A stretch of DNA of 64,000 bases from Terricaulis silvestris. GTDB taxonomy: Bacteria; Pseudomonadota; Alphaproteobacteria; Caulobacterales; Aquidulcibacteraceae. Positions 39,861-60,020 of the stretch are shown here, piece by piece (within the stretch, counting starts at the first letter, position 1; the number at the start of each line of letters is the position of its first letter). The stretch covers positions 372,001 through 436,000 of the forward strand of contig NZ_CP047045.1 of the NCBI RefSeq assembly GCF_009792355.1, read 5' to 3'. Below the pieces are notes generated by a model, which saw nothing but the letters and a program-made list of their open reading frames with translations, had not been told where the DNA came from and searched no databases. The position numbers were made by a program, and so were the translations under genes.

Positions 39861-39950
39861 CGGCTATCCGCCGCATTCTGTAATCCTGCGCGGCGCACGC
39901 TCTTGATCTCGTGCGCTGCGGCGCTACGCCTGCACCGGAGGGAGATCGTC

Positions 39951-41615
39951 ATGAACCTGAGCCGCCGCTGCTTTGCACAAGCTTCTCTGGCAGCCCTTGC
40001 CGCTGGCTGCGGTCGCAGCGAACGGGCGCCTGATCTCATTATTTTCGGCGGGCCGATCTACACCGGTGTTTCACGGACGCCGCGTGTCGAAGCGCTGCGC
40101 GTGCGCGACGGGCGCATCGTGTTCGCCGGCGCATTGGAAGAGGCAACCGCCAACCGCGGCAACGCGCAATCGATCGATCTCGGTGGCGCGGCAGCGTTTC
40201 CCGGCTTCACGGATTCGCACGTGCATCTCACCGGCGTTGGCATGGCCGCGTTGCAACTCGACCTTGTTGGCGTGGAGTCAATCGCGACGATGCTGGAGCG
40301 ACTGCGCGCGTACGCAGCGGCGAATACGGAGGGGCCGATCTATGGCCGCGGCTGGATCGAAACGCATTGGCCGGAGCGCCGCTTCCCGAACGCTGCAGAC
40401 TTGGACGCTGTCGTCAGCAATCGCATCGTTGTTCTGGAGCGCATCGATGGCCACGCTGTTGTCGTCAACACGGCGGCGCTGACGCTCGCCGGCATCAACA
40501 ATAACACGCCGAACCCACCGGGCGGCAGCATCGAGCGTGATGCGAGCGGCGCGGCCACCGGCATGCTGATCGATAACGCAGCCAGCCTCGTGCAGAGCCG
40601 ATTGCCGTCGCCGACGCCGGAGATGATGCGCAACGCGTTACGCCAAGCAGCGCAATTGTACGCACAGCGCGGCTGGACGGGCATTTCCAACGTCAGCACC
40701 ACTGCGCAAGAGGCGACGTTCTTTGAGGAATTGGCGCGTGTGGGCGAGATGCCGCTGCATGCGAGCCTTTATATGGATCCATCGGCACTCGACCCGCTGT
40801 TCGAGCGTGGGCCTTATGTGGACGCCACGGGCCTGGTGCATGTCCGCGGCGTGAAACTTTACATGGATGGCGCGCTCGGATCGCGCGGCGCTGCGCTGTT
40901 GTCGCCCTATTCGGACGCGCCAGGCGATGGCTTGCTCGTTACGCCGGTGGACGAGATTCGCGACCTGTTGCGGCGTGTGCGTGCCGCGAACGCGCAAGCC
41001 GCGACGCACGCGATTGGCGATCGTGGCAATCGCCTGGTGCTTGACGCTTATCGCGATACCTACGCAGACGCGCCGGATGCGTTGCGCGGCGCGCGCTGGC
41101 GGATCGAGCATTCACAGATCATCGCGCCGGAAGACCTGCCGCGCTTCGGGCAGATGGGCGTGATTGCGTCGATGCAGCCGTCTCACGCGATCAGTGACCT
41201 GCATTTCGCGCCGGCGCGGCTGGGGACGAACCGGCTTGCGGGCGCGTATGCGTGGAAGGCGTTGCTGGAGTCCGGCGCCGTCATTGCGGCTGGCAGCGAT
41301 GCCCCCGTCGAGAAGGGCGATCCGTTGATCGAATTCTATGCGTCGTTCTACCGCCACGATCTCAGCGGCTTCGCCGGTCCCGAATGGCATCTCGATCAAG
41401 CTGTCTCGCGCGACCAGACCCTGCGTACGTTGACCTGGGGCGGCGCTTTCGCGGCGTTCGAGGAGGCCGATCGCGGCACGCTGGAGGTTGGCAAGTTTGC
41501 GGATATCAGCGCGTTCTCTGTCGATCTGATGGAGGCCGAACCGGCCGCCATCCCGACCGCGCGTGCGGTGCTCACTGTGAGTGGCGGACGGGTCACCCAC
41601 TCCGCCATCACCTGA
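39951..41615 (+). CDS. YtcJ-like metal-dependent amidohydrolase, probable lipoprotein
   Basis: The ATG at 39951 has a GGAGGGAG ribosome site and gives 554 residues. The N-terminus SRRCFAQASLAALAAGC combines a Tat-like RR with a lipobox, with Cys20 as the likely lipid site. The amidohydrolase motifs follow: FPGFTDSHVHL (H90, H92), VKLYMDGALGSRGAALLSPY, THAIGDRGN, RIEHSQII and AGSDAPVE. YtcJ-type enzymes hydrolyse amides or carbamates. It is a separate transcript unit after tsaD; the substrate is unknown. Confidence 0.9.
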   Translation: MNLSRRCFAQASLAALAAGCGRSERAPDLIIFGGPIYTGVSRTPRVEALRVRDGRIVFAGALEEATANRGNAQSIDLGGAAAFPGFTDSHVHLTGVGMAALQLDLVGVESIATMLERLRAYAAANTEGPIYGRGWIETHWPERRFPNAADLDAVVSNRIVVLERIDGHAVVVNTAALTLAGINNNTPNPPGGSIERDASGAATGMLIDNAASLVQSRLPSPTPEMMRNALRQAAQLYAQRGWTGISNVSTTAQEATFFEELARVGEMPLHASLYMDPSALDPLFERGPYVDATGLVHVRGVKLYMDGALGSRGAALLSPYSDAPGDGLLVTPVDEIRDLLRRVRAANAQAATHAIGDRGNRLVLDAYRDTYADAPDALRGARWRIEHSQIIAPEDLPRFGQMGVIASMQPSHAISDLHFAPARLGTNRLAGAYAWKALLESGAVIAAGSDAPVEKGDPLIEFYASFYRHDLSGFAGPEWHLDQAVSRDQTLRTLTWGGAFAAFEEADRGTLEVGKFADISAFSVDLMEAEPAAIPTARAVLTVSGGRVTHSAIT

Positions 41616-41829: not shown

Positions 41830-44800
41830 ATGGCGGTTAATAAGTCGGCGGCGCGTAAAGCCCGTGGCAGCGTCTCGTTGTTTGCGCTCGGGGCCGCATT
41901 GGGTCTGGTCGCGGCGGGTCCCGCACTCGCGCAAGAGGGGGCGCAGCCCGAGGAAGACGAAATTGTCATCACCGGGTTTCGCGGCTCACTGGCGCAAAGC
42001 CTTGAGGTCAAGCGTGACTCGAATGGCTTTGTCGACGCCATCACCGCAGAAGACATCGCGGACTTCCCCGATCTCAACCTGGCGGAATCCGTCCAACGCA
42101 TTCCTGGCGTCGCCATCGACCGCGACAGCGGCGAAGGCCGCTCGATCGTCGTGCGTGGTCTCGGCGCAGAATTCACCCGCGTGCGGGTCAACGGCCTCGA
42201 AGCGCTGACCACCACAGGCGGCAAAGACGGCTCCGGCGGCAACAATCGCGGCCGTCAGTTCGACTTCAACATTTTCGCTTCCGAGCTCTTCAACTCGATC
42301 ACCGTCCGCAAGTCCTCCTCAGCGGCGGTTGAAGAAGGGTCATTGGGCGCGACGGTGGATCTGCGCGCGGCCCGGCCGTTCGACTTTCAAGACTTCACGA
42401 TGGGTCTGTCGGGTCAGGCCGGCTACAACGACTTATCCGAAACCTACGATCCACGCGCCACGTTCCTCATCAGCAATCGCTGGGAAACGCCGATCGGCGA
42501 GTTCGGCGCTCTGTTCTCGGTCGCCTACACGCACCGCAACGTGCTGGAAGAAGGATCAAGCACGGGCCGTTGGGAAAACCCGAGCGTTGGCACCCAGATC
42601 ACTGGCACCGCGAGCGGAACGGCGTTTCCGTGTCCGACGTCGACCGCACCTCCCGGCGCCAATTACAATCCGTCGAGCGGCCCGCCGCTCACCTGCGCAG
42701 ACATCGGCGTTGGCACCGTCAACCCAGCCCTGATCGTATCGCCAACCAACCCAGCGCCGGTTGGCACCGTCAACAATTCCTGGCACCCGCGCATTCCGCG
42801 CTACGGCCGGCTGGCTTACGATCAAGATCGCCTCGGCCTCACAACGGCGCTGCAGTGGCAGAACGACTCCACTCAAGTGTCGCTCGATTGGATGCACGCC
42901 GAGTTCACCGGCACGCGCCAGGAAAACTATCTCGAAGTTATCGGCTTCAGCCGCGCCGGACAGGGCGTGCCGCAGATGGATGTCGTGGCCTATGAAATCG
43001 ATGATCAAGGCCGCCTCGTCGCCGGCACCTTCGATGATACGGACGTGCGCGTCGAAGAGCGCATCGACGAGCTGAACACCTACTTCAACGAATACACGCT
43101 CGGCATCGAGCACGAGTTCACCGATCGCTTCCGGATGAACTTCCTCGCCGGCCAGGCGGTCTCGCATCACACCAACCCGGTGCAGTCGACGGCTTCGTTG
43201 GAGCGCTACAATGTCGACGGTTATCAGTACGACTATAGCGGCGACGATGCGCGTCCGTTCTTCGATTACAATTTCGACGTCACCAACCCGAACAATTTCG
43301 TGTTGAGCAACTCGGCTGCGCAGGGCGATGCTTCGCTAATTCGCATGCGGCCAAGCGTGACGGACAACACCGTCGAGACCTTTGCGATCGACTTCGAGTA
43401 CGACCTGAACGAGCAGTTCTCGTTCTTGTTCGGCGCATCACAAAAGAGGTTTGAGTTCTTCACGTCGGAAGTGCGCCGCACAAACAACACCGAAGTCGCG
43501 CCACCGCTCGCCGCCGGCGACTGCAACAATGACGGCGTCCGCGGCGATTGTACGATGGCGGACATCACCCATCTGGTCACTGACTTTGGCCGCAATCTCG
43601 ACCTGCCGAGCGGCACGGACACGGCGTGGGTCGTGCCCGACCTCAACGCCATCGCGAACGCGTTCAACATCAATTGCAACTGCATCGATGAAGGTGCGAA
43701 CGGGGTCTACAACTCCACCGCAGGCGCTGACTTGATCCTCGGAACGCCTGATGACGTTCTCGCCGGCGACGACATTGACTATCGCATGAACGTCAACGGC
43801 TTGTTCGCGGGTAACCGCCAGGTCGAAGAAACCAGCAACGCGGGCTTCGTGGCGATAACTTGGGACACGACGCTGGCCGGCATGCCCGTGCGTGGCGACT
43901 TTGGCGTCCGCTACTTCGAGACCGAGGTGAATTCCTCGGGCTATCTCGGGCCCATCCAGGTCACGGCCCAGAACTCGTACACTGACACGCTGCCGTCGCT
44001 GAACCTCGTCGTCGAGCCGCATGAAAATTTCCTCGTGCGCTTTGCGGCGTCGCAGGCCATCTCGCGTCCGGACTTGCCGCGCCTCACGCCTGGCGGCCAG
44101 ATCAACGTCACCGCTGGCGGCGTCTCGATGAGCATCGGCAACCCGCTGCTCGAGCCGATCCGCTCGACCAATTACGACCTCGGCTTCGAATGGTATTTCG
44201 ACGAGGAGGCGCTGGTTTCGGTGTCCTTCTTCCGCAAGGATATCGAGAGCTATCAGCAGGTCGTGCAGACGGCGACGACATTCGATCAAACTGGCATTCC
44301 GGCGTCGCGCCTTGACGGCACTGCGCAGGACGGTGTGGACCCGACAACGATACCGACAAATATGGTGGGCTTCCAGAACACGCCTGGCGGCGAACTCAAC
44401 GGCTACGAGATCAGTTACCAGCAACCGTTCACGTTCCTGCCGGGCATTCTCGCCAATTTCGGTACGATCCTGAACTACACGCATGTCGAATCCGACATCG
44501 AGTACTTCCTGAACAACGCCGGGACTCAGACGGTGACACTGCCGTTGCTGAACCTGTCGCCCGAAACTTGGAACGCGACGCTCTACTATGAGGACGGTCA
44601 TTTCAGCGCCCGTGTTTCGGCGGCGCATCGCGATTTGTATCTGACGGGGCCGTTTGCCGGCATCAATGGCAACGACTCGCGGGGCAAGCGCGAAACGCTG
44701 AACGTCGATACGGCGGTGAGCTACACGTTCAACGACCACATGACGTTCACCTTCGAGGGCATCAACTTGACCGATCAGGCCGATGACCGCTGGCTCAACT

Positions 44801-44874
44801 CGACGCTCGATTTCACCGAGAGCTTCGAACACACCGGACGGCAATACTACGTCGGCTTCCGCTACACCTACTAA
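41830..44874 (+). CDS. TonB-dependent receptor of the carbohydrate (TIGR01782-like) family
   Basis: The 1014-residue protein has a signal peptide (LFALGAALGLVAAGPALAQ), TonB-box DEIVITGFRGSLAQSLEVKR, then TAEDIADFPDLNLAESVQRI and PGVAIDRDSGEGRSIVVRGL. That opening is characteristic of the long receptors of Caulobacter and Xanthomonas for oligosaccharides. The barrel ends with FEHTGRQYYVGFRYTY. It heads a set of genes for a GH43-type glycosidase and a pectate lyase, so uptake of pectic oligosaccharides is inferred. A strong hairpin follows its stop. Confidence 0.93.
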   Translation: MAVNKSAARKARGSVSLFALGAALGLVAAGPALAQEGAQPEEDEIVITGFRGSLAQSLEVKRDSNGFVDAITAEDIADFPDLNLAESVQRIPGVAIDRDSGEGRSIVVRGLGAEFTRVRVNGLEALTTTGGKDGSGGNNRGRQFDFNIFASELFNSITVRKSSSAAVEEGSLGATVDLRAARPFDFQDFTMGLSGQAGYNDLSETYDPRATFLISNRWETPIGEFGALFSVAYTHRNVLEEGSSTGRWENPSVGTQITGTASGTAFPCPTSTAPPGANYNPSSGPPLTCADIGVGTVNPALIVSPTNPAPVGTVNNSWHPRIPRYGRLAYDQDRLGLTTALQWQNDSTQVSLDWMHAEFTGTRQENYLEVIGFSRAGQGVPQMDVVAYEIDDQGRLVAGTFDDTDVRVEERIDELNTYFNEYTLGIEHEFTDRFRMNFLAGQAVSHHTNPVQSTASLERYNVDGYQYDYSGDDARPFFDYNFDVTNPNNFVLSNSAAQGDASLIRMRPSVTDNTVETFAIDFEYDLNEQFSFLFGASQKRFEFFTSEVRRTNNTEVAPPLAAGDCNNDGVRGDCTMADITHLVTDFGRNLDLPSGTDTAWVVPDLNAIANAFNINCNCIDEGANGVYNSTAGADLILGTPDDVLAGDDIDYRMNVNGLFAGNRQVEETSNAGFVAITWDTTLAGMPVRGDFGVRYFETEVNSSGYLGPIQVTAQNSYTDTLPSLNLVVEPHENFLVRFAASQAISRPDLPRLTPGGQINVTAGGVSMSIGNPLLEPIRSTNYDLGFEWYFDEEALVSVSFFRKDIESYQQVVQTATTFDQTGIPASRLDGTAQDGVDPTTIPTNMVGFQNTPGGELNGYEISYQQPFTFLPGILANFGTILNYTHVESDIEYFLNNAGTQTVTLPLLNLSPETWNATLYYEDGHFSARVSAAHRDLYLTGPFAGINGNDSRGKRETLNVDTAVSYTFNDHMTFTFEGINLTDQADDRWLNSTLDFTESFEHTGRQYYVGFRYTY

Positions 44875-44894
44875 GCAATCCGGCATCTCCGGGG

Positions 44895-44923
44895 GGGCGC
44901 CGAGCGAAAGCCCGGCGCCCTTT
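44895..44923 (+). terminator. Rho-independent-like terminator after TonB receptor
   Basis: GGGCGCCG (44895-44902) and CGGCGCCC (44913-44920) form an 8-bp GC stem with a 10-base loop, followed by TTTC. It lies 20 bases after the receptor stop and 25 bases before the next start. It probably attenuates readthrough, so the receptor would be made in excess over downstream enzymes. Confidence 0.7.
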
Positions 44924-44947
44924 CGAGTCGGGGAAGGGACGGCTAGG

Positions 44948-46678
44948 ATGATCGCCCGCGCTCAATCGTGCAGCGGAGACGCCGTGTCACCGACCGAAAT
45001 GCAGCAACAGATGCGTGAAGCGCTGGCGTTGTTTCAGTGCGGTGATGCTGCTGCCGCAGAGGCGGCGCTAAAACCGGTGCTGAGCGCCGCGCCGCGCGAT
45101 CCGAATGTTCGCCACCTCGCGGGTCTTATACGCCGCGCGCAAGGTGATGCTGACGCCGCGCTGGTCGATTTTGACGCGGCGCTCGCCGCTGCGCCGAGTG
45201 CGGCGCGCGTTCACGTGAATAGGGCAGCCCTTCTGGCCGAACTCGGGCGTCACGAGGAGACGCTCGCGGGATTGGATGCGGCGGCGCGCCTAGGCGTTGA
45301 TGATATCGCGCTTTGGCGTGCGCGTGGCGTCGCGTTGAGTCATCTGGAGCGGCATGTGGACGCCATTGCAGCGTTCGACCGGGTTCTAGCACTGGATCCG
45401 AACGCCGCCGATGCGCGCGCCAACCGTGCGCGCGCCTTGCTCGCGGAAGGTTGCTACGAGGAAGCGATTGCTGATTACGATGCGCTGCTCTGCCTTGATC
45501 CCGGCGATGCCGGATTGTGGGACAATCGCGGTGTGGCGTTGTTCAAGCTTGATCGGCTCGATGAGGCCGAGACGAGTCTCGCGCGGGCGCTTCAGCTTCG
45601 ACCGGATCATGCGAGCACGCTCTCCAATGCCGGTCTCGCCTTGTTTGGCCTCGGCCGGCCTGACGAAGCGATCGCCGCATTCGATCGCGCGATTGCCCTC
45701 AACGAGGGCGCTGATTCAAGAGCCCTGGCGACACTCCACTATAACCGTGGCATGGCGCAACTCGCGCGCGGCGCCTTCGATGCAGGATGGCAAGGTCTCG
45801 AACAGCGCTGGGTGGCGGGGATGGTCAATTCGCCTCGCGTCGATAAAGGCGAGCCCGAATGGCGCGGCGAACCCGTTGAAGGCGTCCTTCGCGTCTGGCC
45901 TGAGCAAGGGGTAGGCGACCAGATTCTTTTCGCACGATTGGCCCCGCTTGCGCGCGAACGAACAGGGCGTGTCGTGCTCGAATGCGATGCGCGACTGGCG
46001 CCGCTGTTCATGCGTTCCTTCCCGGAGATTGAAGTTGTCGCGGAGTACGCGCAACCGGCGGCGGCGCAGTGCGCGCTTGGCAGCCTTGGCGCTGTGATGG
46101 GAGTTGAGCGCGAGGATCTCGCCGGTGGCGCCGCGTTTCTGCGCGCTGATCCGCGCGACGCAGGGGAAATACGGACGCGCTACGCCGCGTTGGCCGCGGG
46201 CCGGCCGATCGTTGGTATTGCTTGGGCCTCCATCAGCCCGGGTCGGGGCGAGTGGAAGACGGCGTCCTTGTCGCATTGGGGGCCGCTGCTGAAGCAGGAC
46301 TGCTTCTTTGTCAGCCTTCAGTACGGCGACACGGATGCCGACATCGCAGCGGCTCGCGAGGCGTTTGGCGCCGATATTCATAGAGATGCGGCGATCGATC
46401 AATTCGAAGACCTCGACGCCTTCGCGGCGCAGATCGTGGCGCTGGATCGTGTCGTGTCGGTGTCGAATACGACAGTGCACATGGCCGGCGCGCTGGGCGT
46501 CGACTGCATCGTGATGCCGCCACCGGCGCGCGGCAGGCTCTGGTACTGGAGCATCCAGGGCGACACGACGCCTTGGTACGCAAGCGTGCGTGTGATGCGC
46601 CGCAGCTTGCGCGAAGACTGGACAGATCAAGTCGCTCGCGCTGCGGCGGTCGCGGCGCGCAGGGGAGCGAGTCAATGA
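44948..46678 (+). CDS. TPR protein with C-terminal GT-B glycosyltransferase-like domain (paralogue 1)
   Basis: From the ATG at 44948 the protein has 576 residues. The N-terminal 300 residues are TPR repeats, for example FDAALAAAPSAARVHVNRAA and FDRVLALDPNAADARANRAR. The C-terminal half has RVWPEQGVGDQILFARLAPL, PIVGIAWASISPGRGEWKT and RVVSVSNTTVHMAGALGVDC, as in GT9/heptosyltransferase-fold domains fused to TPRs. No signal peptide is present, so it is cytoplasmic. Its stop overlaps the glycosidase ATG by four bases. Paralogue 2 is at 49393-51066. The acceptor is unknown. Confidence 0.85.
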   Translation: MIARAQSCSGDAVSPTEMQQQMREALALFQCGDAAAAEAALKPVLSAAPRDPNVRHLAGLIRRAQGDADAALVDFDAALAAAPSAARVHVNRAALLAELGRHEETLAGLDAAARLGVDDIALWRARGVALSHLERHVDAIAAFDRVLALDPNAADARANRARALLAEGCYEEAIADYDALLCLDPGDAGLWDNRGVALFKLDRLDEAETSLARALQLRPDHASTLSNAGLALFGLGRPDEAIAAFDRAIALNEGADSRALATLHYNRGMAQLARGAFDAGWQGLEQRWVAGMVNSPRVDKGEPEWRGEPVEGVLRVWPEQGVGDQILFARLAPLARERTGRVVLECDARLAPLFMRSFPEIEVVAEYAQPAAAQCALGSLGAVMGVEREDLAGGAAFLRADPRDAGEIRTRYAALAAGRPIVGIAWASISPGRGEWKTASLSHWGPLLKQDCFFVSLQYGDTDADIAAAREAFGADIHRDAAIDQFEDLDAFAAQIVALDRVVSVSNTTVHMAGALGVDCIVMPPPARGRLWYWSIQGDTTPWYASVRVMRRSLREDWTDQVARAAAVAARRGASQ

Positions 46679-48297
46679 CGACGCGACGTGATGCTCTGCA
46701 ATCGCTATTGCTTGGCGGGGCCTTCGCGTCCGCACCGAGCGCGACGTTAGCGCAGGACAACTCGCAGCTATGTTCACGCGCGCCTGGAGACTGGTCACAT
46801 CTGACCTGGGGGCGTGGCTTCGAAGACCAGCGCATCGCCGATCTCGGCGACGGCGTGTTTCGCAACCCGATCATGTCCGGCGACCGTGCCGACCCCACCA
46901 TCCTGAAAGACGGCGCCGGCTATTGGATGACGTTCTCGTCGTTCGATTCGTATCCCGGCGTGATGATCTGGCATTCGCGCGATCTGGTGAACTGGAGCCC
47001 GGTCGGTCCCGCGCTGCGCACGCCAATTGGTTCGGTATGGGCTTGCGACATCGCTAAGCATCGCGGTCGCTACTACATCTACATTCCCGCGCGCACCCCG
47101 CAGAGCCGCTCCAACTATGTGATCCACGCGCGCTCGATGCGTGGTCCGTGGAGCGAGCCGATCGACCTCGATCTTCCGATGCACATCGATCCCGGCCATG
47201 CAGTCGGCGAGGATGGCAAACGCTATCTCTTTCTTTCAGGCGGGGATCGAGTGCGTTTGACTGACGATGGCCTCGCTACGGATGGGCCCGTCGAACACAT
47301 GTATGATCCCTGGCGCTATCCGAGCGATTGGGACGTGGAGAGTTTTTCTCCCGAAGGGCCGAAGATCACGCGCCACGGCGACTACTTCTATCTCGTGACC
47401 GCCGTCGGCGGCACGGCCGGGCCGCCGACGGGGCATATGGTGATTGCCGCACGTTCGCGTTCGATCCACGGGCCATGGGAGAATTGCCCGCACAATCCGC
47501 TCGTGCGCACGACCGATGCGCGTGAGAAATGGTGGTCACGGGGGCACGCGAGCTTGGTGGAGGGGCCAGGGGGCGATTGGTGGAGCGTCTATCACGGCTA
47601 TGAGAACGGGTATTGGACGCTTGGACGCCAAGCGCTGCTCGATCCGATTGAGTGGACGGATGACGGCTGGTTTCGGTTCCGCGGCGGTGATCTCTCGCAA
47701 GCGATGCCCAAGCCTCGCACGCTTGTGCCACCGGCGTCACATGGCGTTGCGCTGTCGGATGATTTCTCGACGGACAAACTCGGGGCACAGTGGGCGTTCT
47801 ATGATCCCGGCCCCAACGAACGTAATCGGCTGCGATACGAAGCTGGCGCGCTCGTCCTCGAAGGGAAGGGTGATACGCCGGCCAATTGCTCACCGCTTAC
47901 CTTCATTTGCGGCGACCAAGCGTATCGGTGCGAAGTCGAGATCGAAGCCGAAGGCGACGCGACGGGCGGCGTACTGTTTTTCTACAACCGCCGGCTCTAT
48001 TGCGGCCTCGGCATGAGCGCGACGGGCCGCGTGCAGCACCGCCAAGGGCTCGAACGGCGCGGCGCGAAACCGCCCAATCTCGGCAACCGCTTCTTCATCC
48101 GGTTCGAGAACAACCGCCATATCGTGACATTCCACACCTCGCCGGATGGGCGCGCGTGGACAAAATACGACGTGCAGATGGAAGTGTCCGGCTATCACCA
48201 CAACACGGCATATGACTTCCTCAGCCTCCGACCCGGCATCTATGCTTCGGGGCAAGGCCGCGTCCGCTTCCGCAACTTCAAGTACCAAGCGCTATGA
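46675..48297 (+). CDS. Glycoside hydrolase family 43-type enzyme, Tat-exported
   Basis: From the ATG at 46675 the protein has 540 residues. The twin-arginine signal is TTRRDALQSLLLGGAFASAP. The five-bladed propeller signature includes GDRADPTILKDG, where D73 is the likely general base, then PGVMIWHSRDLVNWSPVG and WACDIAKHRGRYYIYIPA. From about residue 365 there is a second beta-sandwich domain (DDFSTDKLGAQWAFYDPG). GH43 enzymes remove arabinose, xylose or galactose side chains. Four-base overlaps on both sides place it in one operon with the pectate lyase. Confidence 0.88.
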   Translation: MTTRRDALQSLLLGGAFASAPSATLAQDNSQLCSRAPGDWSHLTWGRGFEDQRIADLGDGVFRNPIMSGDRADPTILKDGAGYWMTFSSFDSYPGVMIWHSRDLVNWSPVGPALRTPIGSVWACDIAKHRGRYYIYIPARTPQSRSNYVIHARSMRGPWSEPIDLDLPMHIDPGHAVGEDGKRYLFLSGGDRVRLTDDGLATDGPVEHMYDPWRYPSDWDVESFSPEGPKITRHGDYFYLVTAVGGTAGPPTGHMVIAARSRSIHGPWENCPHNPLVRTTDAREKWWSRGHASLVEGPGGDWWSVYHGYENGYWTLGRQALLDPIEWTDDGWFRFRGGDLSQAMPKPRTLVPPASHGVALSDDFSTDKLGAQWAFYDPGPNERNRLRYEAGALVLEGKGDTPANCSPLTFICGDQAYRCEVEIEAEGDATGGVLFFYNRRLYCGLGMSATGRVQHRQGLERRGAKPPNLGNRFFIRFENNRHIVTFHTSPDGRAWTKYDVQMEVSGYHHNTAYDFLSLRPGIYASGQGRVRFRNFKYQAL

Positions 48298-49376
48298 GAG
48301 TGGCGCCGCTCACCCTTGGCGGATTGGTCTGCTCGATGGCTCTTGGCGCGGTTGCGTTCGTTTCACCGGGCTGTGCGTCAGCGCAAGAGGCGGCGCGCTG
48401 GAGTGAAGCGATTGTTGAACAGGACGATGCCGTCTTCGCTTCGGCGCAAATGCGCGCGGTGGCTGACAACGTCGTGCTGCACCAGTCCGCCGCAGGCGGC
48501 TGGCCCAAGAACACAAATTTGGCTGACCCCCCGGCGGGCCCTGCCTCGCCAAACGTAGCGAACACGATCGACAATAACGGCACCACGCTGCCGATGGAGT
48601 TTCTCGCGCGCGTGATCAGTGCTGGCAGCGCACAGTATAGGCCATCCTTTGAACGGGGTTTGGACTACCTCCTTGCGGCTCAGTACGCAAATGGGGGCTG
48701 GCCGCAATTCTACCCGCTGCGCGGGGGCTACTACGATCACGTCACGTTCAATGACAACGCGATGATCCACGTGATGACGCTGCTTCGAGACATTTCAGGC
48801 GGCGAAGCGCCTTACGGATTTGTTGACGCCGACCGCCGGCGACGCGCTGGCGAGGCGGTGGAACGTGGTCTTGCGCTCATCCTTCGTACGCAAATCCGGC
48901 AGGGAGATGCGCTCACAGCTTGGTGCGCGCAGTACGACGGCTCCTTGCATCCGGCCTGGGCGCGTGCCTACGAACCGCCGTCGCTATCGGGTGCTGAAAG
49001 TGTAGGGATTGTGCGCTTTCTCATGGCGATCGATCATCCTTCGCCTGAGGTAATCGCCGCCGTCGAAGGCGCAGCGACGTGGCTGAGCGTCTCAGCCATC
49101 GAAGGTGCGCGGGTTGAAACGTTCACTGACGCAGAAGGGCAGCGCGACAGGCGCGTTGTAGACGACGCGAACGCGCCACCGATTTGGGCGCGGTTCTACG
49201 AACTGGAGACCAATCGGCCGCTCTTCCTGGGCCGAGATTCTGCCTTTCATTACACGTTCGCGGAGATAGAACGCGAACGCCGCGCGGGATATAACTATTA
49301 TGGCGATTGGGCGCGCACGGTGCTCGATCGCTTTCCTGCGTGGCGCGCCCGCGTTGGAGCGACCCAAGGTCGATAG
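48294..49376 (+). CDS. pelA: Pectate lyase, polysaccharide lyase family 10
   Basis: The 360-residue protein has a signal peptide (MALGAVAFVSPGCASAQ). PL10 motifs follow: SAAGGWPKNTNLA, NGGWPQFYPLRGGYYDHVTF, NDNAMIHVM, LSGAESVGIVRFLM, and IWARFYELETNRPLFLGRDS with YNYYGDWA near the end. PL10 enzymes cleave polygalacturonate by beta-elimination with calcium. The gene overlaps the GH43 gene by four bases. It supplies the strongest clue that the locus handles pectin. Confidence 0.93.
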   Translation: MRVAPLTLGGLVCSMALGAVAFVSPGCASAQEAARWSEAIVEQDDAVFASAQMRAVADNVVLHQSAAGGWPKNTNLADPPAGPASPNVANTIDNNGTTLPMEFLARVISAGSAQYRPSFERGLDYLLAAQYANGGWPQFYPLRGGYYDHVTFNDNAMIHVMTLLRDISGGEAPYGFVDADRRRRAGEAVERGLALILRTQIRQGDALTAWCAQYDGSLHPAWARAYEPPSLSGAESVGIVRFLMAIDHPSPEVIAAVEGAATWLSVSAIEGARVETFTDAEGQRDRRVVDDANAPPIWARFYELETNRPLFLGRDSAFHYTFAEIERERRAGYNYYGDWARTVLDRFPAWRARVGATQGR

Positions 49377-49392
49377 ATGATAAGCGTCTTGA

Positions 49393-51066
49393 ATGAACTC
49401 TGCTGATCTGCAGGCGCGTCTTGGACAAGCGCAGCACTTGCTGACGCGGGGCGATATCGTCGGCGCGACACACATGCTCGAAACCATGTTGAAGGCCGCG
49501 CCTGGTGAACCTAATGCGCTGCACATGCTTGCCGCCGCGAAGCATCGCGCCGGAGATTGCGCGGGTGCGCTCAAGCTTTTCGATGAGGCCACGCGCCGCG
49601 CGCCGCTCGTGGCGGCGTTCCAATTCAACCGCGCCAATCTGCTGCTGGAGATGGGCCGCAACGCGGATGCCCTCGATGGTTACGATGTGGCGCTAACGCT
49701 GAGGCCGCAGCACGCGGAAAGTTGGCGCAACCGGGCGCGAGCGCTTCGAGAGTTGGGGCGCGCCGGCGATGCGCTTGCGTCGTCGGAAGAGGCGCTTCGG
49801 TTGATGCCCAGCGATACCTTTGCTCAAAGCGAGCGCGGTTTGGCGCTGTTTGCGCTGCGGCGATTCGAGGATGCTGTTGCGGTGTTTGGGAGCGTGGCGG
49901 AGGCTGCGTCCAACAATGCCGATGCTCACTTCAATCTCGGGCGCTCGCTGCAAGAGTTGAATAGACTTGAGCAAGCCCTCGCCGCCTTTGATCGCGCCGC
50001 AGCGCTCGACCCGGCAAACGCGGACATTCAGCACAATCGCGCTGTCGTGCTGTTGTGGCTCGACCGACGTGATGAGGCGATTGCGGCATTCGATGCATCC
50101 CTCAGCCAACGACCCGGCCGTGTCGATACGCTCTACACCAAAGGTGTCGCGCATTTGGCGTTTGGCGAACTTGCAGACGGTTGGCCGCTTCACGCACTGC
50201 GGCGGCACCCGGGATCGCCGATCGCGATTAAGGACCTCTCGCGCGGCGAGCGTGAATGGAACGGGGAGCGCGTCAGCGTGTTGCGGCTGTGGCGAGAGCA
50301 GGGGGTTGGCGACGAGGTGTTGTTCGCGCGGCTCGCGCCGCTTGCCGCGCAGCGGGCAGAACGCTTGATCCTTGAGTGCAGCGAGCGGCTCGCGCCTTTG
50401 TTCGCGCGATCGTTTCCCGGTCTGAACGTGTGCGCGGTCGGAAATGCGCCGGTCGCGGACGCACAGTCTCCTGTCGGTGGCGTCGGACAGTTTGTCGCGC
50501 CGAATGCCGGGGCACTTGGCGATGGCGCGCCTTACCTCCGCGCCGACGGCGATCGTCTCTGTGCACTGCGTGCGCGCTATGTTGAGCGCGCGCGTGGCCG
50601 CAAGATCGTCGGCATCGCCTGGGCGTCGAACAACCAGCGGCTGGGTGCGCATAAGAGCACAGCGCTTGCCCAATGGGGCGCTCTGCTTCAACGCGAGCAC
50701 TTCTTCGTCAATCTGCAGTACGGCGAAGTCGCTGCCGAAGGTGAACGCGCCGCCGCTCGGTTCGGCGCTGAGATCTATTCCGATTCCGATGTGGATCAAA
50801 TGGCGAGCCTAGACGACTTCGCCGCGCAAGTGGCGGCGATGGACGCCGTCGTATCGATCTCCAACACTACCGTGCACGTCGCCGGCGCTTTGGGCGTGCG
50901 TTGCGTTGCGCTCGTCCCGCCCGGGCTAGGGTTGCTCTGGTATTGGGGCTCTGCAGCCGACACAACACCGTGGTACCGAAGCGTTGCGCTGGTGCGGCGC
51001 GCCTCGGATAAAGGCTGGGCCGAGCAGGTAGCGCGCGCGGTGGGTGTGCTTGAGCGCGACGAATGA
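49393..51066 (+). CDS. TPR protein with C-terminal GT-B glycosyltransferase-like domain (paralogue 2)
   Basis: The 557-residue protein repeats the architecture of the gene at 44948. TPR units come first (FDRAAALDPANADIQHNRAV), then LRLWREQGVGDEVLFARLAP, KIVGIAWASNNQRLGAHKST and AVVSISNTTVHVAGALGVRC, with a terminal WYWGSAADTTPWYRSV. The two copies clearly share an ancestor and bracket the GH43 and PL10 genes. It has no signal peptide and starts 16 bases after the lyase stop. Its role in a pectin locus is not obvious; glycosylation of a surface protein is one possibility. Confidence 0.85.
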   Translation: MNSADLQARLGQAQHLLTRGDIVGATHMLETMLKAAPGEPNALHMLAAAKHRAGDCAGALKLFDEATRRAPLVAAFQFNRANLLLEMGRNADALDGYDVALTLRPQHAESWRNRARALRELGRAGDALASSEEALRLMPSDTFAQSERGLALFALRRFEDAVAVFGSVAEAASNNADAHFNLGRSLQELNRLEQALAAFDRAAALDPANADIQHNRAVVLLWLDRRDEAIAAFDASLSQRPGRVDTLYTKGVAHLAFGELADGWPLHALRRHPGSPIAIKDLSRGEREWNGERVSVLRLWREQGVGDEVLFARLAPLAAQRAERLILECSERLAPLFARSFPGLNVCAVGNAPVADAQSPVGGVGQFVAPNAGALGDGAPYLRADGDRLCALRARYVERARGRKIVGIAWASNNQRLGAHKSTALAQWGALLQREHFFVNLQYGEVAAEGERAAARFGAEIYSDSDVDQMASLDDFAAQVAAMDAVVSISNTTVHVAGALGVRCVALVPPGLGLLWYWGSAADTTPWYRSVALVRRASDKGWAEQVARAVGVLERDE

Positions 51067-51084
51067 CGCGATGCAGGATGAGCG

Positions 51085-51825
51085 ATGAGGCTTAGGATGA
51101 ATCCGCAAGACCACACGATCCACGTTTTCATCGGCTACGACAGCCGCCAAGCCGTGCTCTACAATGTGGCGCAGCACAGCATCGTTCGCCACTGTTCGGA
51201 ACCGATCGCGATCACGCCGATCCGGCTCGACCAGGTGAAGAGCATTCATGACCGGCCGCGCATATCGATGCAGTCGACGGAGTTTTCGTTCACCCGTTTC
51301 CTGACACCGTATCTGCGCGGCTACCGGGGATGGGCGCTGTTTATGGATTGCGACACGCTATTGCGAGCCGATCTCGCCGAACTTTGGGCGCTGCGTGACG
51401 ATCGTTTTGCGGTGCAGTGTGTAAAACACGATCACCAACCGGCGTCGTCAGTTAAGTTTCTCGGTCACGAACAGACGCGCTACGAGAAAAAGAACTGGAC
51501 CAGCGTCATGCTGATGAACTGCGCTAAGTGCGCGGCGTTGACGCCGGAGTATGTCAACACCGCCTCCGGTCTCGATCTGCATCAGTTCAAGTGGCTGGAG
51601 TCGGACGCGCTGATCGGAGCGCTGCCACGCGAGTGGAATTTCCTGGTTGAATATTACGCACATGACGAAAGCGCCAAGCTGCTGCACTTCACCGAGGGCG
51701 GACCGTACTATCAAGCCACTCGCCATGTGGATTTCGCCCATGAATGGTGGCGTGAGTTCTCGATCGCGAACAGTTCGGAGGACAGCGAAGTCTGGGCGCT
51801 CGCTGACGCCGCCGGCAAAGACTAG
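51085..51825 (+). CDS. GT-A fold glycosyltransferase (GT8-like)
   Basis: The 246-residue protein starts HTIHVFIGYDSRQAVLYNVA after a short lead; an ATG at 51097 is an equally good start. The motif GWALFMDCDTLLRADLAEL contains the DxD metal/nucleotide-sugar site, and a later HTEGGPYY-like stretch (LLHFTEGGPYYQ) fits GT8-type active sites. It ends the operon 18 bases after the TPR-GT gene. Its 3' end overlaps the converging DUF885 gene by four bases. Donor and acceptor are unknown. Confidence 0.82.
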   Translation: MRLRMNPQDHTIHVFIGYDSRQAVLYNVAQHSIVRHCSEPIAITPIRLDQVKSIHDRPRISMQSTEFSFTRFLTPYLRGYRGWALFMDCDTLLRADLAELWALRDDRFAVQCVKHDHQPASSVKFLGHEQTRYEKKNWTSVMLMNCAKCAALTPEYVNTASGLDLHQFKWLESDALIGALPREWNFLVEYYAHDESAKLLHFTEGGPYYQATRHVDFAHEWWREFSIANSSEDSEVWALADAAGKD

Positions 51826-53390
51826 GCAGCAAAAGCGGCGCGCACGGCTTGGGTGAGACCGGGTGGGGAGAGCGGGCCATAGCGGAGCACGGCTTCGTGG
51901 AAGCGCGCCATCGTGAAGCCGCGCATGTGGCGCGTGCGCTCGCGCAGGTCGGCGATGTGGCGCGCCGCCAGGGCTTGCGCGGTGTAGACGCCGGGCTGCA
52001 CGCAGAACCGCAGCACGTCGTCCTCGATGCTGACGAAGGCGATGCTGTCGCCTTGCAGCGCGCGCATTTCGGTTATGGCGCGCTCGCGGCTCCAGCGCAT
52101 CGCGTTGATCCCGGTGTCGGCGACGATGCGGCCGTAGCGGAACAGCATCCATTGCAGGTAGCCAATGCGCCCCAACGGATCGTCGGCGAACGCGCCGACA
52201 TCGTCGGCAAGCTGCTCAGCGTAGATGGCCCAGCCTTCGCCATAGCCGCTGGCGTAGCGCGCCTGCAGCTCGAGCGGCTCGCTGCGGTAGAGGAAATAGT
52301 TCTGCAGGATGTGACCGGGGATGAGTTCGTGATGGACGACGCTGGGCAACGTCCAGCTTGGCCGTGGCGCGCCGAGATCGATCAGATAGGCGTTGCCTGT
52401 CCGCCGCCCGGCCGTGCCATTGGCCTCCTGAGCGCGGGGCAGACGGCCCACTTCCGCTGGCGTCGTCGTGATCGACGCTGCTTCGGGAATGACGTCGCAA
52501 AACAGCGAACGAATGCGGCTCAAGCACGCGCCCATGTCGAGCAGCGCGCGCGTCGCGCCATCTTCGTCCGTGCCGGTGAGGTAACGCGGATCGCGCGCCA
52601 ACGTGCGCAAGCGATCGCCGACGCTGCCGCTGGTGAGGCCCTGGCGGCGCAGCAGAGTATCGGTCTCGCGCTGCAAGGCGCGGCAGTGTTCGAGCGCTTC
52701 GCGGTGGGCTTCGCGTGGATCGACCGGCGCGCCCAGCTGCAGCTGCAACGTATTGGCGTAGAATTCCTCGCCGCCAGGCAAGCGCCAGACACCAGCGTCG
52801 GTGCTCGCCCGTGCGCGTTGTGCGCGAAGCACGTCTGCTTGGCGGTTGAGCGCGTCAACCAGCGACGCATGGCGCTCCTCGCCTGACGCAGCAACGCGCT
52901 GCGCGGCTGCTTCCACTTCGGGGATCACGGCGTCGATCGCGAAATCCGGCGCGATCACGCCCGCCGCTGCGTCTGCCTCCAAGCGGTTGGTGTCGCGGTT
53001 CACTTCGCGCAGTGCGATGCGCAGATCGTCTGCGGGATTGAGCTCGGCGGCGCGTCGGTATGCGCCGTTGCGGCTAGTCACCGCGTAAGGGACGCCGAAG
53101 TTGCCCCAAGCGCTTTGCGCAAGCGCCGCTTCGGCCTCGGCGCCGGGACCGACCGCGTCGTACAGAACGCGGCCCTGGGGCGTGAGGCGCGTGGCATCGA
53201 AACGGCGCAACAGGAAAGGTCGCGCCGAGGGCGTGCGTTGCGCGAGCCTGTCGGCAAACTCTCGGAACTCAGCGTCAGCGGCCGGATCGCCTGTTGCGCT
53301 GACGGGCTGCGCCGCCGCGCTCGCGCAGCCGGCAAGCGCCCCCGCGCCAGCCAACAGCAGGCGCCTGCGGTCAAATGAAGTGAAGTGCAT
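51822..53390 (-). CDS. DUF885 family lipoprotein, putative metallopeptidase
   Basis: The 522-residue protein has a Tat/lipoprotein signal, FDRRRLLLAGAGALAGC, with Cys22 as the lipid site. The zinc motif HHELIPGH is at residues 353-360, and YGEGWAIYAEQLADD follows as in DUF885 proteins related to M1/M32-like gluzincins. It is probably anchored in the envelope and may cleave peptides. It is a single gene converging on the glycosyltransferase. Confidence 0.88.
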   Translation of the reverse strand: MHFTSFDRRRLLLAGAGALAGCASAAAQPVSATGDPAADAEFREFADRLAQRTPSARPFLLRRFDATRLTPQGRVLYDAVGPGAEAEAALAQSAWGNFGVPYAVTSRNGAYRRAAELNPADDLRIALREVNRDTNRLEADAAAGVIAPDFAIDAVIPEVEAAAQRVAASGEERHASLVDALNRQADVLRAQRARASTDAGVWRLPGGEEFYANTLQLQLGAPVDPREAHREALEHCRALQRETDTLLRRQGLTSGSVGDRLRTLARDPRYLTGTDEDGATRALLDMGACLSRIRSLFCDVIPEAASITTTPAEVGRLPRAQEANGTAGRRTGNAYLIDLGAPRPSWTLPSVVHHELIPGHILQNYFLYRSEPLELQARYASGYGEGWAIYAEQLADDVGAFADDPLGRIGYLQWMLFRYGRIVADTGINAMRWSRERAITEMRALQGDSIAFVSIEDDVLRFCVQPGVYTAQALAARHIADLRERTRHMRGFTMARFHEAVLRYGPLSPPGLTQAVRAAFAA

Positions 53391-53455: not shown

Positions 53456-54178
53456 TTAGGCGGCGACGACGCCCGTGGTGACCGTCGCGGTTGCGCCGGC
53501 TTCCTGCGGATCGCGCAGCACGTAGCCGCGGCCCCAGACCGTTTCGATGTAATGTTCCCCGCCGGTGGCGGCGGCAAGCTTCTTACGGAGTTTGCAGATG
53601 AACACGTCGATGATCTTGAGTTCCGGCTCGTCCATGCCGCCGTAGAGATGGTTCAGGAACATCTCCTTCGTCAGCGTCGTGCCTTTGCGGAGCGAGAGCA
53701 GCTCCAGCATTTGGTATTCCTTGCCGGTCAGGTGGACGCGGTGGCCGGTGACTTCGACCGTCTTCGCATCGAGGTTGACCGTGATGTCGCCCGTTTTGAT
53801 GACGGAATGAGCATGGCCCTTCGAGCGGCGGACGATCGCGTTGATGCGGGCGATCAGTTCGTCCTTGTTGAAGGGCTTGGTCATGTAATCGTCGGCGCCG
53901 TAGCCGAGGCCGCGCACCTTGGTGTCGATGTCGGCGGTGCCCGAGAGGATCAGGATGGGGGTGTTCACCCGCGCCACCCGGAGCTGCTTCAGCACATCGT
54001 AGCCGTGCATGTCGGGCAGCGTCAGGTCGAGTACGATGATGTCGTAATCGTAGAGCTTGCCGAGATCGATGCCTTCCTCGCCCAGATCGGTCGAGTAGAT
54101 ATTGAATCCCTCGGACTTGAGCATCAGCTCGATGCCCTGCGCCGTGGCGCTGTCGTCCTCGATCAATAAGACTCGCAT
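53456..54178 (-). CDS. ctrA: Cell-cycle response regulator CtrA
   Basis: From the ATG at 54178 the protein has 240 residues, starting [20 protein letters not shown]. The phospho-acceptor is D51 ([20 protein letters not shown]), and the OmpR-type winged helix contains [16 protein letters not shown]-like sequence ([20 protein letters not shown]) and [12 protein letters not shown]. These are the hallmarks of CtrA, which represses replication initiation and activates flagellar and division genes in Caulobacter. The C-terminus ends VVAA, matching the terminal di-alanine ClpXP degron. It is divergent from fliI. Confidence 0.97.
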
Positions 54179-54490
54179 AGAATGCTCCCCGTCGGCGCAA
54201 GAGCCGGGCACAGTTAACTCACAGAATCGATGGAAGGGGTTTAATCTTAGTAAACGCCGCTAACGATTCTTACTGAGCTGGTGTGCTTACCTCAGTGCTG
54301 CTGACCCATCAGTGCCCCGTTAACCAACCTTAGAATCTGATTTGGATTCGCGTGTCTACCCGTTCGTATGCGCGAAAGTGTCAGCCACTAGCCCTATGAA
54401 ATGAATCGTATCGCCAACGAGCCTTGATGCGATTCAGATTTCGCTAACCATGACCGCGCACAGAAGGTGTGAGAAATTTTCCGTAGGCGA
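54179..54490. promoter_or_regulatory. ctrA-fliI divergent promoter region with six GANTC sites and CtrA-like boxes
   Basis: GANTC sites occur at 54224, 54265, 54333, 54345, 54403 and 54431, six in 312 bases where one or two are expected. CcrM methylation of GANTC controls ctrA P1 in Caulobacter. CtrA-like motifs are TTAACCAACCTTAG (54320-54333), CTAACCAT (54444-54451) and TTAACTC (54214-54220). A GTTTA-N7-TAAAC inverted repeat is at 54239-54255. Confidence 0.75.
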
Positions 54491-55810
54491 ATGCCAACAC
54501 TCCTTTCCAGACTCGCAAGTGAGATCGATGCGCTTGATCCGCGGCGCTTCGAAGGGCGTGTGACCGGATTGTCAGGTTCCTTGATAGAGGTAACCGGACC
54601 AGTCGATGCGCTTGCGCTCGGCGCGCGCGCTACGATTCAGAGTCTGCGTCCATTCCGTGGTGAGATCGTCGGCTTCCGCGGCGATCGCGCTTTGCTTGCG
54701 CCGTTTGATCCGATCGAAGCGATCCGTCCCGGCGCGCGCGTGGCGTTCGAGGGCGGTTCGCCACTGGTGCGGCCGTCGCGGGCATGGCTGGGGCGTGTGA
54801 TTGATTGCTTCGGCAATCCGGTGGACGGCGAGGGGCCGCTGCCGCAAGGCACGAAGCCGCACCTCGTGCGCGCCGCGCCGCCGTCGGCGCACGATCGCGC
54901 GCGTGTGGGCGGACGGCTCGATGTCGGCGTGCGTGCGCTCAACATTTTTGCTGCGATCTGCCGCGGCCAGCGCATGGGCGTGTTCTCGGGGTCCGGCGTC
55001 GGCAAGTCGGTGCTGATGTCTATGCTGGCGCGCGGCGCGCAGGCGGACGTGATCGTGATCGGCCTCGTTGGCGAGAGAGGCAGAGAAGTCAAAGAGTTCA
55101 TTGAAGATACGCTGGGCGAAGAGGGGCGGCGCCGTTCCGTCGTCGTCGTTGCGACGTCGGATGAAACGGCAGCACGCCGGAGGCTCGCGCCGCACATGGC
55201 GTGTGCGGTCGCCGAATACTTTCGCGATGAAGGTTTGGACGTGTTGCTGCTGATCGACAGCGTGACGCGCTTTGCGATGGCGCAGCGTGAGATTGGTTTG
55301 TCGGTCGGTGAGCCGCCGACGACCAAAGGCTACACGCCATCCGTGTTCGCTGAGCTGCCGAAGCTGCTCGAGCGCGCGGGGCCGGGGCGTGAAGGCGAGC
55401 ACGGGTCGATCACGGCGCTCTTCACCGTGCTGGTGGATGGTGACGATCACAACGAGCCGATTGCGGACGCGGTGCGCGGCATTCTCGATGGCCACATCGT
55501 GATGGAGCGCTCCATCGCCGAGCGCGGCCGCTATCCGGCGATCAACGTGCTGAAGTCGATCTCGCGGCTTATGCCGATGTGTCATACGGCGGATGAGAAC
55601 CAACTCGTCGGACGCGCGCGCGCGTTGTTGGCGCTTTACGGTGAAATGGAAGAATTGATCCGCATCGGTGCGTACAAGCCTGGCGCCGACGCGCAAGTTG
55701 ATGAAGCGGTGCGCGTGCGCGACGCGCTGGAGGTGCTGTTGGCGCAGAACCGCGACGAACAAACCAGCATCAAGGAGAGCTTCGCGATGCTGGCTGAGGC
55801 GCTGTCATGA
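54491..55810 (+). CDS. fliI: Flagellar export ATPase FliI
   Basis: The 439-residue protein has an F1-beta-like fold with Walker [14 protein letters not shown] (from 167), [18 protein letters not shown] and [19 protein letters not shown], then the FliI-specific [20 protein letters not shown]. It energises export of flagellar subunits by the type III apparatus. It overlaps fliJ by four bases. Its divergent position beside ctrA suits direct CtrA control. Length is as expected. Confidence 0.96.
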
Positions 55811-56226
55811 AATCACTGCGTACCTTGCTGAAGCTGGCTGAGCGCGATCTTGAAACCCTGCGGCGTGAAATGGCGGCGATGATCCAGCGCCAGCGCATCA
55901 TCGAGGATCGCATAGCGGGCCACGATCAGACCATCGCGCGCGAACAGGCCTTGGCGCAGCGGGACTATGAGTCCGCGCGTGTGTTCGGCGGTTATGCGGC
56001 GGCTTCGTTGCTGCGCCGGCGCGCTATGCAGAGTGAGGGCGAGATTGTCGGCGCCGAGATCGAGCGGATCCGCGAGTTGATCACCGCGGCGCACGTCGAA
56101 ACCAGCAAGTTCGAGCGGTTGCTTGAGCTGGAAGAAGCCCGTGCGAAAGCGAGAGCCGAAAAGCGCGAAAACGAAGAGCTGGATGAGTTCGCGACGATGC
56201 GCGCGGGGCGGACCCGCGAGGCTTAG
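55807..56226 (+). CDS. fliJ: Flagellar export chaperone FliJ
   Basis: The 139-residue protein is almost entirely charged coiled coil ([20 protein letters not shown] and [20 protein letters not shown]). This, the length, and a four-base overlap with fliI identify FliJ, the central stalk-like subunit of the FliHIJ complex. Sequence alone would be weak; context makes the call good. Its 3' end overlaps the converging MinD-like gene. Confidence 0.88.
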
Positions 56227-57026: not shown

Positions 57027-57082
57027 ACCTCAGATATGCGCGGCACACGTTTCGGAGGCGTTAGCGCCGGTGGTGCTTTTGG

Positions 57083-57097
57083 TTAACGAGAGCTAAA
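57083..57097. promoter_or_regulatory. CtrA box upstream of the FlhG-like gene
   Basis: TTAA-CGAGAGC-TAAA matches the CtrA consensus TTAA-N7-TTAA with one mismatch and correct spacing. It lies in the 90-base gap ahead of the FlhG-like gene, suggesting direct cell-cycle control by the CtrA encoded 3 kb away. Confidence 0.6.
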
Positions 57098-57116
57098 TGA
57101 CGAAGATATCATGCGC

Positions 57117-57755: not shown

Positions 57756-57881
57756 GCGCGCGATTATGCGGCGAGTGGAAGCTCGGTCGGATTGAGCGCG
57801 TTGCCGAGCTAGGGATTTCAACGACTTGGGAGGAGAGTTTGGGGGATAGGCGAAGGGCATATCCACGCAAAAGGCGGTCGG
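57756..57881. other. Intergenic segment upstream of the small ORF
   Basis: GGGAGGAGAG at about 57829-57838 resembles a ribosome site but no ATG follows at a suitable distance on the plus strand. Nothing else was recognised. Confidence 0.4.
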
Positions 57882-57950
57882 ATGCCTTTTTCGGCAATAG
57901 CAGCATTTCTGATTGGTGCGCTTTGGCTGGTGTTGCGAGATCGCGGCTAG
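57882..57950 (+). CDS. Possible 22-residue single-span membrane peptide
   Basis: The frame reads MPFSAIAAFLIGALWLVLRD followed by RG and TAG. This is one hydrophobic helix with a positive C-terminal end, the usual look of small membrane proteins. The ribosome site is weak (AAAGGCGG about 7 bases upstream). A 7-bp hairpin TGTCGCC-TTTC-GGCGACA at 57964-57981 closes the unit 14 bases later. It may be real or chance. Confidence 0.3.
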   Translation: MPFSAIAAFLIGALWLVLRDRG

Positions 57951-57963
57951 CCATGCCCGGCGA

Positions 57964-57981
57964 TGTCGCCTTTCGGCGACA
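57964..57981. terminator. Hairpin with TTTC tetraloop
   Basis: TGTCGCC-TTTC-GGCGACA is a perfect 7-bp stem with a 4-base loop between the small ORF and the converging LysR gene. There is no T tract. A terminator role is likely by position. Confidence 0.5.

Positions 57982-58994: not shown

Positions 58995-60020
<1,026 letters not shown>

Follow-up and report, generated by a model that had tools for sequence, protein, structure and literature searches.

A pectin uptake unit joined by putative protein O-glycosyltransferase genes at a variable site in Terricaulis silvestris

The DNA analysed here, called the window, is the whole stretch of 64,000 nucleotides from position 372001 to 436000 of the one-contig, 3.86 Mb genome of Terricaulis silvestris (NZ_CP047045.1); positions below are counted within it. 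The subject is a run of six plus-strand genes. Three of these, for a TonB-dependent receptor, a glycosidase of family GH43 and a pectate lyase of family PL10, are of pectin type. Two encode proteins with a tetratricopeptide repeat (TPR) domain and a glycosyltransferase (GT) domain, TPR-GT1 and TPR-GT2, and the last encodes a GT resembling family GT8. All six genes were confirmed at their positions, and the tight packing on one strand with overlaps around GH43, described in an initial annotation, was found as claimed. The features are:

41830..44874, + strand: TonB-dependent receptor of the carbohydrate (Xanth-Caul) type, probable pectin-oligosaccharide receptor (TIGR01782; relatives adjoin pectin or uronate genes)
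44893..44922, + strand: strong G+C-rich hairpin without a T-run (sequence; fold of 44874-44945, -39.8 kcal/mol)
44948..46678, + strand: TPR-GT1, TPR domain and GT domain like the flagellin-linked TPR-GTs, no signal peptide by eye (Pfam TPR; relatives)
46675..48297, + strand: GH43 glycosidase with a C-terminal GH43_C2 domain and, by eye, an N-terminal twin-arginine signal-like stretch (PF04616)
48294..49376, + strand: PL10 pectate lyase with, by eye, a signal-like N-terminus (PF09492 and TIGR02474 above cut-off)
49393..51066, + strand: TPR-GT2, sister of TPR-GT1 (Pfam TPR; GT-domain likeness; tree)
51085..51825, + strand: GT8-like glycosyltransferase of the GT-A fold with the D-C-D motif kept (Pfam GT8 below cut-off; alignment; structure model)

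The open reading frame (ORF) listed for TPR-GT1 starts at 44783, which is too far upstream and would overlap the receptor. A likelier start codon is the ATG at 44948, which follows GGGGAAGGGAC, or the one at 44999, and the receptor and TPR-GT1 genes therefore do not overlap. The spacer between them is 73 or 124 nt, depending on the start, and holds the hairpin, which may act as an attenuator or stabilise the mRNA ahead of the five genes that follow. GH43 starts with the ATG at 46675, not at 46573, and overlaps both TPR-GT1 and PL10 by 4 nt (ATGA on both sides). The remaining gaps are 16 nt (PL10 to TPR-GT2) and 18 nt (TPR-GT2 to the GT8-like gene). Such overlaps suggest that the genes are expressed together, and the interleaving of the GT genes with GH43 and PL10 favours common expression as well. 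Scans for the sigma-70 consensus (2 found, 2.0 expected) and for terminator-like sites (6 found, 9.7 expected) gave no excess, and the window contains no tRNA and no Rfam family above the gathering score.

The family assignments of the pectin half, made already in the initial annotation, are confirmed by scores above the NCBIfam and Pfam cut-offs. The receptor reaches 631.7 bits against TIGR01782 (NCBIfam cut-off 310), PL10 313 bits against TIGR02474 (NCBIfam cut-off 189.8; PF09492 is also above cut-off) and GH43 283.3 bits against PF04616 (Pfam cut-off 32.2). The nearest solved structure to GH43 is 6ms3 (1.4e-51), and PL10 resembles the solved pectate lyase 1r76 (1.4e-59). Both enzymes are probably exported, judging from their N-termini as read by eye. 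Among 11 receptors compared, those closest to the window receptor are from two genomes of the same genus (53% for locus L179, 52% for L180), followed by Niveispirillum (51%); relative to these 11, it has two loop insertions, one of them rich in Thr, Ser and Pro. The genome has two TIGR01782 receptors over the cut-off, including that of the window. The second (G000:C1:2989375-2991876, L183) is followed by genes that read by eye as a GH53 galactanase and a GH2-like glycosidase, and this region is likely a pectic galactan locus.

Relatives of PL10 at 1e-30 were found in 31 of 398 genomes of the order, this genome included and no other of the genus. Nine contexts were fetched from the 30 other positive genomes. 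GH43 and the receptor stand near PL10, without GTs, in five of them, in the order GH43-receptor-PL10 in three (L164-L166) and as PL10, another gene, GH43 and receptor in two (L167, L169). In a further context (L162) the GH43 match is at the margin of the stretch, at a distance of about 8.6 kb, and in three (L163, L168, L170) it is absent. A TPR-GT was seen in none of the nine.

On three annotated sphingomonad plasmids, two from Novosphingobium and one from Croceicoccus, a pectate lyase, the receptor, an alpha/beta hydrolase and GH43 follow in order, and downstream of GH43 there is either uxaC with a gene of the mannitol dehydrogenase family, or a tripartite ATP-independent periplasmic (TRAP) transporter. 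None of the pectate lyases in these clusters matched the window PL10, and they thus belong to another family. On one plasmid kduD lies near the receptor relative, and on two unannotated Azospirillaceae plasmids the receptor relative adjoins genes that read by eye as 2-keto-3-deoxygluconate (KDG) kinase, 2-keto-3-deoxy-6-phosphogluconate (KDPG) aldolase and kduI/kduD-like. The pectin assignment of the initial annotation agrees with this company. A GH43 relative in Caulobacter rhizosphaerae (51%) has as its neighbour an annotated TonB receptor that the window receptor does not match, in a region without a pectate lyase, and the pairing of receptor and GH43 is therefore not universal.

Receptor-GH43 sets recur in alphaproteobacteria, sometimes with PL10. 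The receptor, GH43 and PL10 are a pectin uptake unit that can be described as a partial carbohydrate utilisation (CUT) locus in the sense of the relevant passages of PMC1790865, where partial CUT loci with their parts scattered over the genome are described. The window has the TonB receptor and the degradative enzymes of a complete CUT locus; no inner-membrane sugar transporter or sugar regulator was recognised among the adjoining window genes scanned, which makes the set a partial one. It shares the carbohydrate-type receptor, pectate lyase and GH43 with the pectin CUT loci of the same passages (PMC1790865) and with the sphingomonad receptor-hydrolase-GH43-uxaC clusters, but differs in that GT genes are interleaved and no uronate genes were recognised alongside. 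The initial annotation had stated that transporter and uronate genes are missing; none was recognised among 30 window proteins scanned with Pfam (one major facilitator superfamily, MFS, match was below cut-off), a scan that covered part of the window genes, and uronate genes were not searched genome-wide. Its conclusion that this is not a standard utilisation locus is not supported: partial CUT loci are described in the passages cited, and since the receptor-GH43 core recurs, including beside uxaC on the Novosphingobium plasmids, missing uronate genes do not make the locus non-standard.

The run occupies the gap between two border genes:

39903..41615, + strand: amidohydrolase, left border of the variable site (Pfam; same-genus sites)
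51822..53390, - strand: DUF885 protein, convergent, right border of the variable site (Pfam; same-genus sites)

Sixteen other genomes of the genus gave a DUF885 match, and the corresponding site was fetched from nine of them. The order amidohydrolase-gap-DUF885-CtrA is kept in all nine, with tsaD before it in some. Five of the gaps contain only a receptor (L173-L177), two are empty (L178, L181), and two contain GH43 besides the receptor, along with one more gene of 441 or about 500 codons (L179, L180); a TPR-GT, a GT8-like gene or PL10 is present in none. The gap between the amidohydrolase and DUF885-ctrA is a variable cargo site, with receptor-GH43 as a recurring occupant. Conservation of gene order had been put forward in the initial annotation as a check, and at these nine sites the order is not conserved. 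Flanking repeats, looked for as a trace of insertion, were short and imperfect only.

Gene order was sampled in 20 order and 20 class TPR-GT contexts, the nine PL10 contexts, the nine same-genus sites and 10 plasmid regions. The full gene set of the window was not found among the order and class relatives fetched, the plasmid records viewed or the same-genus sites, and among the sampled data the union of pectin unit and GT module is seen only in this genome.

On its right the variable site borders conserved ctrA and fliI (fliJ by position), a MinD-like ATPase (by eye) and flhA (FHIPEP), at 53456-62610. A flagellar link drawn from the closeness to fliI was set aside because ctrA, and in most cases fliI, adjoin the same site in same-genus genomes without the GTs.

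The GT domains of TPR-GT1 and TPR-GT2 are 52% identical, and no third TPR-GT was found in the genome at E<=0.01. Of the labels TPR-GT and GT-A in the initial annotation, the TPR is recovered by Pfam and the GT-A gene by a structural match to GT8, but neither kind of GT domain gives a Pfam match above cut-off; those of the TPR-GTs have GT9 matches below cut-off only. The two proteins are called glycosyltransferases because of their likeness to flagellin-linked TPR-GTs and to the published FlmG. Towards the flagellin-linked TPR-GTs of the order, the GT-domain identity is 28-36% (1e-34 to 1e-23), and TPR-GT1 and TPR-GT2 share the nine residues invariant in a 25-row alignment, both copies being among the rows. 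The AlphaFold2 model of TPR-GT1 has a predicted local distance difference test (pLDDT) score of 93.4. As to a possible GT-B fold of the C-terminal domain, structure searches with the full model gave rows of OGT and SPINDLY that span both domains at low TM-score.

Matches to the TPR-GTs were found in 10 of 30 genomes of the genus at 1e-8 (this one included, the other nine at 32-36% identity), 2 of 60 in a draw from the family at 1e-30, 27 of 398 from the order at 1e-25 and 27 of 385 from the class at 1e-38. A genome-contig scan gave five loci of 27-31% identity, matched over the TPR repeats. Of the 20 contexts fetched from order and genus, 13 are flagellin, flaF or flbT loci, the sort of setting in which FlmG occurs.

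For the tree and the context comparison, 140 hits were reduced to 84 other TPR-GTs by removing duplicates and matches shorter than 180 residues. The tree comprises 86 GT-domain rows with Shimodaira-Hasegawa-like approximate likelihood ratio test (SH-aLRT) support, 31 of its 83 inner branches being below 80; the flagellin-linked clade is defined by gene context, and no named FlmG is in the tree. TPR-GT1 and TPR-GT2 are sisters (SH-aLRT 99). The pair falls outside the main flagellin-linked clade of the order and outside the clade of the other TPR-GTs of the genus. Its point of attachment is an unresolved fork shared with flagellin-linked rows of other orders (L098, L102), and its nearest rows by path (L099, L095) are both near a GT8-like gene.

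By gene context (4-kb limit, tblastn at 1e-5; 56 wide contexts and 28 with only about 1.5 kb on each side), 33 of the 84 have a flagellin, flaF or flbT homologue close by, 11 have a GT8-like gene, a group inflated by the seven TPR-GTs that entered via GT8-like loci, and 40 have neither. A homologue of the receptor, GH43 or PL10 was found near none. Among the 56 wide contexts 30 lack a flagellin, flaF or flbT homologue, a few of these standing among other flagellar genes, as do by eye some of the rows counted as near neither, such as L100, L107 and L108. Four plasmid relatives were viewed, of which two (Roseomonas, Salipiger) are among flagellar genes and two (Granulicella, Azospirillum) are not. 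The genome's own flagellin-flaF-flbT region (L171) has, by eye, no TPR-GT. Between TPR-GT1 and TPR-GT2 the TPR part is 37% and the GT part 49% identical; TPR identity is also lower, barely so in one case, in all 13 comparison pairs, and the difference is therefore a habit of the family and not evidence of two clients.

Two other arrangements of TPR-GTs were seen by eye. In L100 (genome G456, 4784-13422) five TPR-GT genes stand in tandem between fliI/fliJ-like and fliS/fliD-like genes, which suggests repeated duplication of flagellar TPR-GTs. In L062-L064, of the same genus as the window, the TPR-GT has as its neighbour a small DUF6165-like gene (about 126 codons), and two of these loci have a GT25-like gene there as well; this is a third kind of association.

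The GT8-like gene is single-copy in the genome. Its product scores 20.1 bits against Pfam GT8 (PF01501), below the cut-off of 24.3. In the motif D88-C-D90, D90 is invariant in 18 rows and D88 nearly so. The structure model (pLDDT 84.5) has 6u4b as its best Foldseek match (1e-12) and also matches WbbM, GlyE, LARGE1 and LgtC, with identities of 10-18% among the 50 rows listed. It thus shares the GT-A fold and a D-x-D motif with the GT8 enzymes GlyE, LgtC, WbbM and LARGE1, but differs in being below the family cut-off and in having relatives often beside TPR-GTs.

The gene is found in 44 of 385 class genomes. Loci were obtained for 29 of 45 other matches, and 11 of these 29 have a TPR-GT within 1.5 kb. 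Of the 26 other genomes that have a strong TPR-GT, 19 carry the GT8-like gene as well, compared with 43 among all 384 (Fisher p 5e-15, ignoring shared descent). Some of its loci adjoin genes that read by eye as nucleotide-sugar epimerases. The family was found in phages too, in 18 of 50,697 records, among them Pelagibacter, Synechococcus, Stenotrophomonas and Caulobacter phages, with up to 56% identity.

Taken together, the locus is probably (about 0.68) a partial CUT unit for pectin at a variable cargo site, joined by a cytoplasmic protein O-glycosylation module. Both halves were known already; new, within the data sampled, is their union in one gene run. The closest published counterpart of the TPR-GTs is FlmG of Caulobacter crescentus, according to passages of PMC7591256 a cytoplasmic flagellin O-glycosyltransferase whose TPR part binds flagellins, which needs both parts for modification and which suffices for flagellin modification where pseudaminic acid is made. 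FlmG and the window TPR-GTs have an N-terminal TPR part, a GT domain and a similar length in common. This likeness predicts that TPR-GT1 and TPR-GT2 are soluble protein O-glycosyltransferases, and their predicted activity rests on what is published for FlmG. They are not FlmG in the strict sense, as they fall outside the flagellin-linked clade of the order, are not beside flaF-flbT-flagellin and occur as two sister genes with a GT8-like gene.

In the proposed mechanism, the TPR domain of each TPR-GT would hold a client protein while the GT domain places the first sugar, which the GT8-like enzyme would then extend. The order of initiation and extension is suggested by GT8 fold relatives such as GlyE, from what is generally known of its role. 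In the glycosylation of serine-rich adhesins, a Gram-positive system with accessory Sec export, GtfA/B is the initiator and GT8 enzymes are the extenders. The order proposed here, an initiating cytoplasmic transferase followed by a GT8 extender, is alike, and no homology is claimed. The client would most likely be a protein leaving the cytoplasm. Flagellin is a plausible acceptor, though at less than even odds; the receptor, GH43 or PL10 of the locus is a more tentative choice, and another surface protein or glycan is equally tentative.

Several observations weigh against this reading. The association is not conserved, which argues against a long-standing functional tie. The initial annotation had named a link of the TPR-GTs with unrelated genes as a sign of chance adjacency, and the contexts elsewhere (33 of 84 flagellin, 11 GT8-like, 40 neither, none pectin) largely show such a link and weaken the functional tie to pectin. 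Within the class draw of 385 genomes the identity to the window TPR-GTs does not exceed 46% when most of the GT domain is aligned, and one match reaches 49% over 173 residues; as closer relatives did not turn up, the function of the two proteins is extrapolated across a wide gap. In the comparisons FlmG's own sequence is represented by flagellin-linked members of the order, and the Foldseek and VIA lists for the full TPR-GT1 model are filled mainly by TPR structures and say little on the GT domain. The statistic for the co-occurrence of GT8-like genes and TPR-GTs takes no account of shared descent, and among the GT8-like relatives closest to the window's (53-57%) only L200 has a TPR-GT within 1.5 kb; the others that adjoin TPR-GTs have 38-47% identity. 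The hairpin could uncouple the five downstream genes from the receptor. Third-position G+C of the five post-receptor genes is unremarkable (8th to 35th percentile of 77 ORFs), and recent acquisition therefore has no compositional support.

The three GT genes might instead be the genome's flagellin glycosylation system, landed in the pectin cargo site beside ctrA-fliI-fliJ and near flhA. This is unlikely on balance, though it deserves consideration: besides the 33 flagellin-linked TPR-GTs and the rows among other flagellar genes, the fork at which the window pair joins includes L098 and L102, two of the four plasmid relatives are flagellar, and the genome has neither a TPR-GT in its own flagellin-flaF-flbT region nor a third copy elsewhere. 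However, the closeness to ctrA and fliI is uninformative, for the reason given above, 20 of 30 genus genomes (some incomplete) have no TPR-GT match at E<=1e-8, the pair lies outside the main flagellin-linked clade of the order, the two other plasmid relatives are not flagellar, and the GT genes are interleaved with GH43 and PL10. This interleaving, with an ATGA overlap on both sides of GH43, speaks for another reading, in which the receptor, GH43 or PL10 is glycosylated by the GTs prior to export, so tuning stability, protease resistance or phage sensitivity of the pectin uptake apparatus. The greater divergence of the paralogous TPR domains, expected for different clients, and the two receptor insertions, one Thr/Ser/Pro-rich, point the same way. 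But the former is shared by the family at large, variable surface loops are found in any receptor, and as none of the 84 other TPR-GTs is near such genes no conservation backs the tie; we consider this explanation doubtful.

WbbM and LgtC, both fold relatives of the GT8-like protein, make polysaccharide or lipopolysaccharide (LPS). Together with the epimerase-like genes beside some GT8-like loci, they are consistent with a role of the three GTs in assembling a surface glycan (LPS, capsule or glycolipid) and not in modifying proteins. This is rather improbable, as FlmG, the one studied member considered here with the same two domains, acts on protein according to passages of PMC7591256, and the genes adjoining the locus include no recognised export or polymerase gene. 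Pure chance adjacency, with unrelated cargo that shares neither expression nor function, agrees with the variation of the site within the genus and with the separate existence of the pectin and GT modules elsewhere. It would require TPR-GT1 and the TPR-GT2/GT8-like pair both to have landed on the same strand around GH43-PL10, with 4-nt overlaps and gaps of 16-18 nt, and we think it has only a small chance of being correct.

The initial annotation was right to consider glycosylation of a secreted or surface protein by the GTs as a possibility, so that its interpretation is partly supported, for pectin and for possible protein glycosylation, though not for non-standard status or conserved order. 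Literature searches combining tetratricopeptide or glycosyltransferase with TonB and related terms, all required jointly, found none. It is a long shot that this is a nutrient-uptake locus with a dedicated cytoplasmic O-glycosylation module, in which two FlmG-like transferases, whose TPR domains bind different clients, and a GT8 extender decorate the receptor and GH43/PL10 before export. If true, glycosylation of the FlmG class would be a general, re-targetable modification of exported proteins and not a flagellar speciality. The 30 of 56 wide contexts without flagellin, flaF or flbT raise the question of what else the class modifies. The locus is of interest mainly because it would allow one to test whether enzymes of the FlmG class also act on exported proteins outside the flagellum: with three exported candidates and two transferases in one run, the question could be addressed by mass spectrometry of a few proteins.

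Two further TonB receptors are found in the window, one at 2976-5237 beside TetR and dehydrogenase genes and one at 31326-33584 beside an MFS-like gene.

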